Positions 42,938 through 45,879 of a stretch of DNA of 64,000 nt are shown here, piece by piece (positions within the stretch are counted from its first letter, which is position 1; each line of letters opens with the position of its first letter). Source of the DNA: Klebsiella pneumoniae. GTDB lineage: Bacteria; Pseudomonadota; Gammaproteobacteria; Burkholderiales; UBA3065. A program made the position numbers and the translations under genes. The notes below the pieces were generated by a model, which ran no database searches, had not been told where the DNA came from, and saw only the letters and a list, made by a program, of their open reading frames with translations. The stretch covers positions 1 through 64,000 of the forward strand of contig CAMDGF010000003.1 in assembly GCA_945897555.1 (NCBI GenBank), read 5' to 3'.

Positions 42938-43087
42938 AAAGGGCGAGTTTATGTGCTTCGATTTGCCATTGTTGTGTTATGGTTTTTACTTAGGCCGGTA
43001 TGACTCATGCGCAAGCCGAGATTCGTGAGGGCTACCAGCCCCAGACAGCTTTCATGCACTCTGCCCTCGCCAACAGGATCCAAGCAC

Positions 43088-43447
43088 ATGAAAACCAGAT
43101 TCAGCCCTCAGTCCCAGTCCTTCGTGCAGCTGGTCACTCTGCTGCACGAGTTCTACGCTGATGCTCCGGCCGGCGCGCGGGATCTGGATGATCTGCTCGC
43201 CTACATCTGTGGGCAGAATGCCGCTGGCAGACACTTGCGATCGACCGACCTTGTGCGCATGCAGCGCTTTGGCACCTTGCCTACACTCACCGCCAAGATC
43301 CACAAGCTCATCGAGCTCGGTCTGATTGTGCAGTCCATCCACGAAGACCGTCGCGAGAAGCATCTGGAGGCAACGCCGGCTGCTGAGCGCTTGCTGCGCA
43401 GCCGCTTCGACATGCTCGGCAAGGCGGGCCTGCTCGCCGCCTCCTAA
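43088..43447 (+). CDS. Winged-helix (MarR-like) regulator next to the puc operon
   Basis: This 119-residue protein looks like a winged helix-turn-helix regulator. Helices around RDLDDLLAYICGQ and the recognition-type segment LVRMQRFGTLPTLTAKIHKLIELGL are followed by a wing (SIHEDRREKHLEATPAAERLL). ATG 43088 is preferred; an in-frame ATG at 43007 adds 27 low-complexity residues. It lies directly upstream of the puc promoter in the same direction, so a role in regulating light-harvesting genes is a plausible inference. I do not recognise an orthologue name. Confidence 0.75.
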   Translation: MKTRFSPQSQSFVQLVTLLHEFYADAPAGARDLDDLLAYICGQNAAGRHLRSTDLVRMQRFGTLPTLTAKIHKLIELGLIVQSIHEDRREKHLEATPAAERLLRSRFDMLGKAGLLAAS

Positions 43448-43468: not shown

Positions 43469-43574
43469 GTCTGCTGACGGGCTTGGCCCTGACGGCCACC
43501 GCTGGCCGCTCAAAGCTCTGCGCATGGCGCTTGGCATGGCCCGCCGTGCGTGTGGATGGCAAAAAACAAAAAAG

Positions 43575-43592
43575 TGTCTCGAATAGTTGACA
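43575..43592. promoter_or_regulatory. PpsR/CrtJ operator overlapping the puc -35 box
   Basis: TGTC-TCGAATAGTT-GACA fits the PpsR/CrtJ consensus TGTC-N10-GACA exactly. Its right half is part of TTGACA (43587-43592), a perfect sigma-70 -35 hexamer, so binding would block the promoter. pucB starts about 130 bp downstream. PpsR is the aerobic repressor of photosynthesis genes in purple bacteria. Confidence 0.7.
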
Positions 43593-43720: not shown

Positions 43721-43867
43721 ATGTCTGAAAAAGTAGGGCTGACTGGCCTGACCGAAGCCGAGTCCGAGGAACTTCACCGTAACCTCATCCAGGGTACTCA
43801 GTTCTTCGGGATGATCGCCGCTCTGGCGCATCTGCTCGCTTACATCTATACGCCCTGGCTGGGCTGA
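43721..43867 (+). CDS. pucB: Light-harvesting 2 beta subunit
   Basis: This 48-residue antenna polypeptide has the LH beta hallmark [17 protein letters not shown], one membrane span and the B850 bacteriochlorophyll-binding histidine in [10 protein letters not shown]. It ends in YTPWLG. LH1 beta chains normally end in WRPW, so this is LH2. AGGAGGAAGG lies just upstream of ATG 43721. It assembles with PucA into the peripheral antenna ring in the photosynthetic membrane, and pucA follows after 10 bp. The frame is open upstream to 43550, but nothing there resembles an antenna. Confidence 0.95.
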
Positions 43868-44051: not shown

Positions 44052-44068
44052 AGTGAGGTATCGGGCAC

Positions 44069-44093
44069 CGGTGGTCGGCCTCGCCGACCACCG
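44069..44093 (+). other. Strong hairpin after pucBA, likely mRNA-stabilising
   Basis: CGGTGGTCGGC-CTC-GCCGACCACCG is a perfect 11-bp stem, 17 bp after the pucA stop. It lacks a T-tract. Stems at this position in puf and puc operons protect the short antenna mRNA and set the excess of antenna over downstream gene products. Confidence 0.75.
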
Positions 44094-44181
44094 TCCCGTT
44101 CTGTTTCGTGGGCCCAGCTTCGTGCGCCACGGGCCCCAACCCTCGCCGGCGCCTCTGCCGTCGGTGATCCGGGGATAGGTC

Positions 44182-45576: not shown

Positions 45577-45598
45577 ACAACACAAAGAGGAGAACCGC

Positions 45599-45688
45599 AT
45601 GACTTTGACCACCTGGATCATGATTCTTTGGGTCATCATCGTGGCCCGCCTGATCGGCTCGAGCTACGCCAAGCGCTCTGGCCGGTGA
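45599..45688 (+). CDS. 29-residue single-span membrane peptide of the puc operon
   Basis: A very small frame encodes MTLTTWIMILWVIIVARLIG and a basic tail (YAKRSGR): one hydrophobic span with a positive-inside C-terminus. AGAGGAG lies 8 bp upstream of ATG 45599. It starts 22 bp after pucC and is followed by an intrinsic terminator, so it is the last cistron of the puc transcript. Spacing, ribosome binding site and composition support a real gene. It could be an accessory LH2 or assembly subunit; I know no named family. Confidence 0.7.
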   Translation: MTLTTWIMILWVIIVARLIGSSYAKRSGR

Positions 45689-45734
45689 GCCCATCGGTCC
45701 GGGCATTGCGTGCCGGATCGTGCAACACAGCAGG

Positions 45735-45759
45735 CGGGCCCTCGGGGCCCGTTTGTTTT
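45735..45759 (+). terminator. Intrinsic terminator of the puc operon
   Basis: CGGGCCC-TCG-GGGCCCG forms a perfect 7-bp stem followed by TTTGTTTT. Confidence 0.9.
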
Positions 45760-45879
45760 GTCATACCTTGTGCATAATCGGCGTCGGCCGTTGCGGGGCG
45801 TGATGCCGTGTAAACATTTGCCTCAAGCAATCTGGGCTTTTGGCCGATAACCCCCCACGATTTTCATTCTGGCGGATCC

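Follow-up and report, generated by a model that had tools for sequence, protein, structure and literature searches.

The window, i.e., the whole stretch of 64,000 nucleotides analysed here, contains a puc operon encoding the beta and alpha polypeptides of an LH2 antenna, the assembly factor PucC and, 23 nt past the stop codon of pucC, a micro-gene for a membrane peptide (Table 1). In the phylogenetic tree, the pucC product is placed in the PucC clade and not with LhaA. Directly upstream of the operon lies an ORF resembling a winged-helix regulator (43007-43447), whose HTH_27 match remains just under the cut-off. Two CrtJ/PpsR-type palindromes precede pucB; with 7 such sites in the window for 7.65 expected, only their position is suggestive. 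Strong hairpins are also present at the equivalent position between pucA and pucC in the other loci bearing the peptide gene, and the hairpin probably keeps the expression of pucC and of the peptide gene below that of pucBA. The stem-loop closing the operon was not listed by a simple terminator scan of the window.

Table 1. Features of the puc operon in the window.
Feature	Coordinates	Strand	Details
CrtJ/PpsR-type palindrome, TGT-N12-ACA, upstream of pucB	43575..43592	+	Second at 43551-43568
pucB, LH2 beta, 48 aa, QGTQ type	43721..43867	+	Pfam LHC 1.4e-9
pucA, LH2 alpha, 57 aa, MIYGK type, F44/L45	43878..44051	+	Pfam LHC 3.5e-8
Strong hairpin between pucA and pucC	44062..44098	+	Fold z -4.7
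pucC, LH2 assembly factor, 464 aa	44182..45576	+	Pfam PUCC 6.4e-148
Ribosome binding site of the micro-gene, AGAGGAGA	45586..45593	+	AGGAGA kept in 5/5 same-genus genomes
Micro-gene, 29-aa single-span membrane peptide, predicted C-in topology	45599..45688	+	MTLTTWIMILWVIIVARLIGSSYAKRSGR
Intrinsic terminator of the operon	45725..45761	+	GC-rich stem-loop and U-rich tail; fold z -3.4

A preliminary description of this DNA had proposed a convincing micro-gene at exactly 45599-45688, citing a good ribosome binding site, a single hydrophobic span followed by basic residues, and a terminator close behind; each of these elements was recovered. The Shine-Dalgarno sequence AGAGGAGA is spaced 5 nt from the ATG, the hydrophobic span covers 18 residues with a mean KD of 2.1 and the tail bears a net charge of +3, such a single hydrophobic stretch with asymmetric flanking charge being that of a single-span membrane protein. 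A conserved His was looked for in the span and none was found, hence the peptide has no obvious pigment ligand. Considering the shortness of the ORF, a chance reading frame at the 3' end of the operon, encoding no functional peptide, had to be considered. Orthologs are nonetheless present in 5/5 genomes of the genus (57-78% identity), where frame, start and Shine-Dalgarno sequence are all kept even though the region 3' of the stop codon is not alignable, apart from a GGGCCC hairpin resembling a terminator, which is present in some of them. The pooled pN/pS of the five same-genus orthologs is 0.53, a value reached by only 28/2000 column permutations, and in two more distant groups of peptides it falls to 0.33 (4/500 permutations) and 0.15 (0/500). 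Loss of the frame or of its start in sister species, together with the absence of a translation signal, was what the preliminary description had named as speaking against a gene, and the opposite was observed. As read from this conservation and from the selection exerted on the protein, the ORF is a real gene under purifying selection, and with it ends an operon composed of pucBA, pucC and the peptide gene; the initial proposal of a micro-gene is thus strongly supported and a chance frame is highly improbable.

The preliminary description had also suggested searching for the peptide downstream of pucC in other betaproteobacteria. A downstream scan of about 60 PucC-family genes and further loci, many of them from metagenome-assembled genomes, disclosed an ORF of 28-42 aa with a single span right after pucC in 41 loci, namely 37 tree rows and four genomes found by profile. 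In the same scan, no comparable ORF was found 3' of LhaA paralogs (0/21) or of 17 other PucC genes (0/17); the 18 other peptide-less tree rows comprise these 17 and L037, which falls with LhaA. Members of the family have in common an L/I/V-rich span, a basic tail and, in most cases, a Trp, and those outside the genus of the window often exhibit N-x-F/Y after the span. Since the mean charge of the flanks across 32 members is +2.75 on the C-terminal side and -0.09 on the N-terminal side, the former being the more positive in 30/32, the tail is predicted to be cytoplasmic.

Respective to the window peptide, members outside its genus share merely 7-33% identity. A profile built without this genus nonetheless ranks its five ORFs 1-5 of 2066 ORFs, at weak E-values (0.011-2.4), and a profile-profile comparison by hhalign gives 93.7% between the family and the window peptide, when the best value among 73 PucC segments, taken from the same genomes and covering hydrophobic helices too, is 5.0%, which further argues against a chance frame. 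Run on the whole genome of origin, the leave-clade-out profile missed the window peptide, and the kinship must as such be considered supported yet distant. With this reservation, its place after pucC and a sequence similarity beyond mere hydrophobicity support the window peptide as a member of a PucC-linked family.

The peptide gene comes after pucC in every locus and never straight after pucBA; its start overlaps the pucC stop in four loci (L031, L039, L041 and L118), and in L113 the gene itself overlaps the end of pucC. In this last locus (genome G384), a second small hydrophobic ORF of 59 aa (MATFLFAMGIVLMVALPTIHHWYLENN...) is found 3' of the peptide gene. At the level of the order, a survey of 399 genomes identified PUCC-family genes in 50, of which 28 have an LH2-type PucC according to our own classification, and the peptide was present in 22 of these 28. 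Strong matches to the peptide profile lie just 3' of the LH2-type PucC paralog, and no convincing match was found in genomes having only LhaA and a third PUCC paralog. The peptide gene is found in many freshwater betaproteobacteria. A class-wide search returned three weak matches in the absence of PucC, which were taken as chance, and no PucC at >=60% identity was found in plasmid records. No description of the gene following pucC in betaproteobacteria was found in the open-access literature.

In peptide loci with readable antenna genes, pucBA lies directly upstream, and these antennas are all of one type, i.e., MIYGK for the alpha polypeptide (35/35) and QGTQ for the beta polypeptide (33/33). 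Four additional loci (L134-L137) were detected by searching with nothing but the peptide profile, in one case with an E-value as weak as 0.0025; their antenna type was read after detection, which makes it a prediction that could have failed, and it turned out to be MIYGK/QGTQ in 4/4, bringing to 39 the readable peptide loci, all of this type. On the contrary, canonical residues, namely MN(Q/N) or MTN in alpha and G(T/A/S)R in beta, are found in 14/15 readable peptide-less loci. In a tree of the alpha and beta polypeptides, the MIYGK/QGTQ type forms one clade (100/97), with the peptide in 33/34 rows inside and 0/14 outside; the association is consequently largely one historical event and not a series of independent cases. 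The two groups are told apart perfectly by residues 2 and 3 of alpha and by residues -13 and -10 of beta, with the exception of L111 (genome G253), where a MIYGK/QGTQ antenna is present and the peptide was not found. No column of PucC separates peptide and peptide-less groups as cleanly, some doing so in part, and PucC rows with the peptide do not form one clade (AU p 0.039, a weak test). As a single pucBA pair and a single pufBA pair were found per genome checked, extra LH2 copies could not be used for telling a subunit from a PucC partner.

Some variations were observed besides this pattern. In L111, alpha 28 is Leu and not Phe. In seven loci (L013, L018, L019, L020, L021, L023 and L064), all of them among the 14 with canonical residues, pucC is convergent to pucBA, and the peptide is present in 0/7. 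In three peptide-less loci (L011, L016 and L026), pucC is followed by a gene whose product matches Pep_deformylase in Pfam (1e-15 to 2e-22), i.e., a peptide deformylase; L011 and L016 have a canonical LH2 and the antenna genes of L026 were not seen.

This LH2 type has a rebuilt pocket for the B800 pigment. In LH2 of Rba. sphaeroides, the acetyl group of B800 is hydrogen-bonded by beta-Arg(-10), its Mg is ligated by carboxylated alpha-Met1, with alpha-Asn3 bonded to the carboxyl, and its rings A and B face the lipid (PMC8775250; PMC6358721). Because the modified N-terminus of alpha ligates B800, the deformylase after pucC in the above three loci may be dedicated to processing alpha-Met1. The window pucBA lacks the residues of a canonical B800-850 LH2 (Arg at beta -10, N/T2-Q/N3 in alpha), and all readable peptide loci have Gln at beta -10 and I2-Y3 in alpha; in the QGTQ motif, the hydrogen-bond donor to B800, i.e., beta-Arg(-10), is thus replaced by Gln. 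Positions 44 and 45 of alpha are Phe and Leu in 32/35 peptide loci, a pair known from blue-shifted B800-820 antennas (PMC8775250), and F44/L45 in the window pucA predicts a blue-shifted, B800-820-like antenna. Among solved LH2 alpha polypeptides, none was found to be clearly of the MIYGK type, the matches starting past the first residues.

No relevant hit was obtained when Pfam, NCBIfam and PDB were searched with the window peptide and with the profile of its family, and no Pfam or NCBIfam match rose over the cut-off; in particular, the peptide has no match to PF00556, the Pfam family of LHC alpha and beta polypeptides. CydX-like one-helix subunits of large membrane proteins are likewise about 30 aa long, with one span, and encoded by the last gene of their partner's operon, a likeness in kind only considering the lack of any Pfam or NCBIfam match over the cut-off. 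Among small single-helix antenna subunits of purple bacteria, the nearest in kind are LH1-gamma of Blastochloris viridis and the gamma-like subunit of Rhodopila globiformis, which sit between LH1 beta helices (PMC10212510). These belong to LH1, whereas the peptide gene is part of the puc operon and accompanies LH2; the peptide is absent from the puc operon of Rhodopila (L010) and, as no relevant PDB sequence matched, membership in known gamma families is not claimed. An extra LH2 polypeptide affecting the 800-nm band, LH2-gamma, is described in Rhodopseudomonas palustris, but it is an extended ribbon of about 10 kDa with EYKGHSGHPLIKQEG repeats and Ser ligands to BChl, reported only in Rhodopseudomonas (PMC9618040). 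The peptide family, made of a hydrophobic span in 28-42 aa and devoid of EYKGHSGHPLIKQEG-like repeats, differs in both size and repeats, by which this identity was ruled out. PufX, protein W and protein Y/Z are also small accessory subunits shaping rings, but those of RC-LH1, and the peptide is tied to LH2 genes. The likeness to PufX, protein W and gamma chains initially put forward consequently stands as regards the kind of protein and fails as regards sequence, no similarity being found with these or other PDB chains.

The peptide probably serves the MIYGK/QGTQ antenna as a helper or subunit not described so far. The tentatively preferred reading, leading the alternatives while falling a little short of an even chance, is that of a gamma-like accessory helix, i.e., a small subunit dedicated to this LH2 type. 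Once inserted, the peptide would have its N-terminus on the outer side and its basic tail on the cytoplasmic side of the membrane, and would rest on the LH2 ring by the outer groove between beta helices, where B800 turns its edge to the lipid and Gln stands in for the usual beta-Arg(-10); as rings A and B of B800 are lipid-facing, a helix outside the ring would touch this exposed edge. There, it may stabilise the ring or the binding of B800, during or after PucC-assisted assembly. An accessory subunit is favoured because presence of the peptide follows alpha and beta residues rather than PucC, and because two of the positions concerned, -10 in beta (Arg) and 3 in alpha, are contact sites of B800 in LH2 of Rba. 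sphaeroides. This reading is weakened by the L111 antenna, for which no peptide was found, by the LH2 type being a single clade, by the PucC columns that separate the groups in part and by the span lacking a conserved His. The constant position of the gene after pucC, behind a strong hairpin, moreover fits less with a 1:1:1 subunit and better with a protein made at the level of PucC.

The same position directly 3' of pucC, with the overlaps between the two genes in five loci and the hairpin suggesting expression at PucC level, brings close behind a second explanation, somewhat less likely, where the peptide would belong to PucC as a subunit or partner, comparable to CydX for cytochrome bd, aiding the assembly of this LH2 type without staying in the finished ring. 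LH2 assembly indeed requires pucC in several species (PMC4949548). Against a partner of PucC, the LH2 alpha/beta type tracks presence more cleanly than any PucC residue, the peptide-bearing PucC rows are not one clade (weakly), 17 PucC genes go without the peptide and no fused PucC-peptide protein was seen. Since the partner cannot be named from sequence alone, and since LhaA, a relative of PucC, associates with YidC, YajC and BchG (PMC10214105), the peptide could also act elsewhere, e.g., in pigment delivery, YidC/Sec insertion or membrane curvature, with co-expression as its only link to puc. This is unlikely, the peptide being never seen apart from a MIYGK/QGTQ LH2 and PucC, and genomes with only LhaA and a third PUCC paralog giving no convincing match. 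The alternative originally formulated, an undescribed LH2 subunit or a PucC partner, remains consistent with all findings and is here sharpened to one LH2 alpha/beta type, with the accessory helix as preferred reading.

LH2 is the textbook two-polypeptide antenna. The accessory helix can be extended to a more doubtful proposal, according to which freshwater betaproteobacteria would possess an unrecognised three-polypeptide LH2, with a one-helix subunit in the outer groove taking over the holding or tuning of B800 from the lost beta-Arg(-10). Limnohabitans planktonicus exhibits an atypical LH antenna at 799/813 nm (PMC12654162), which a three-polypeptide LH2, if true, could help explain, provided this species has the MIYGK/QGTQ type. 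How B800 is held without beta-Arg becomes a directly testable question. Genes below annotation limits can moreover be recovered from operon position and selection and, together, a micro-gene under selection and a rebuilt B800 pocket point to a possible third component of LH2 in common lake bacteria.
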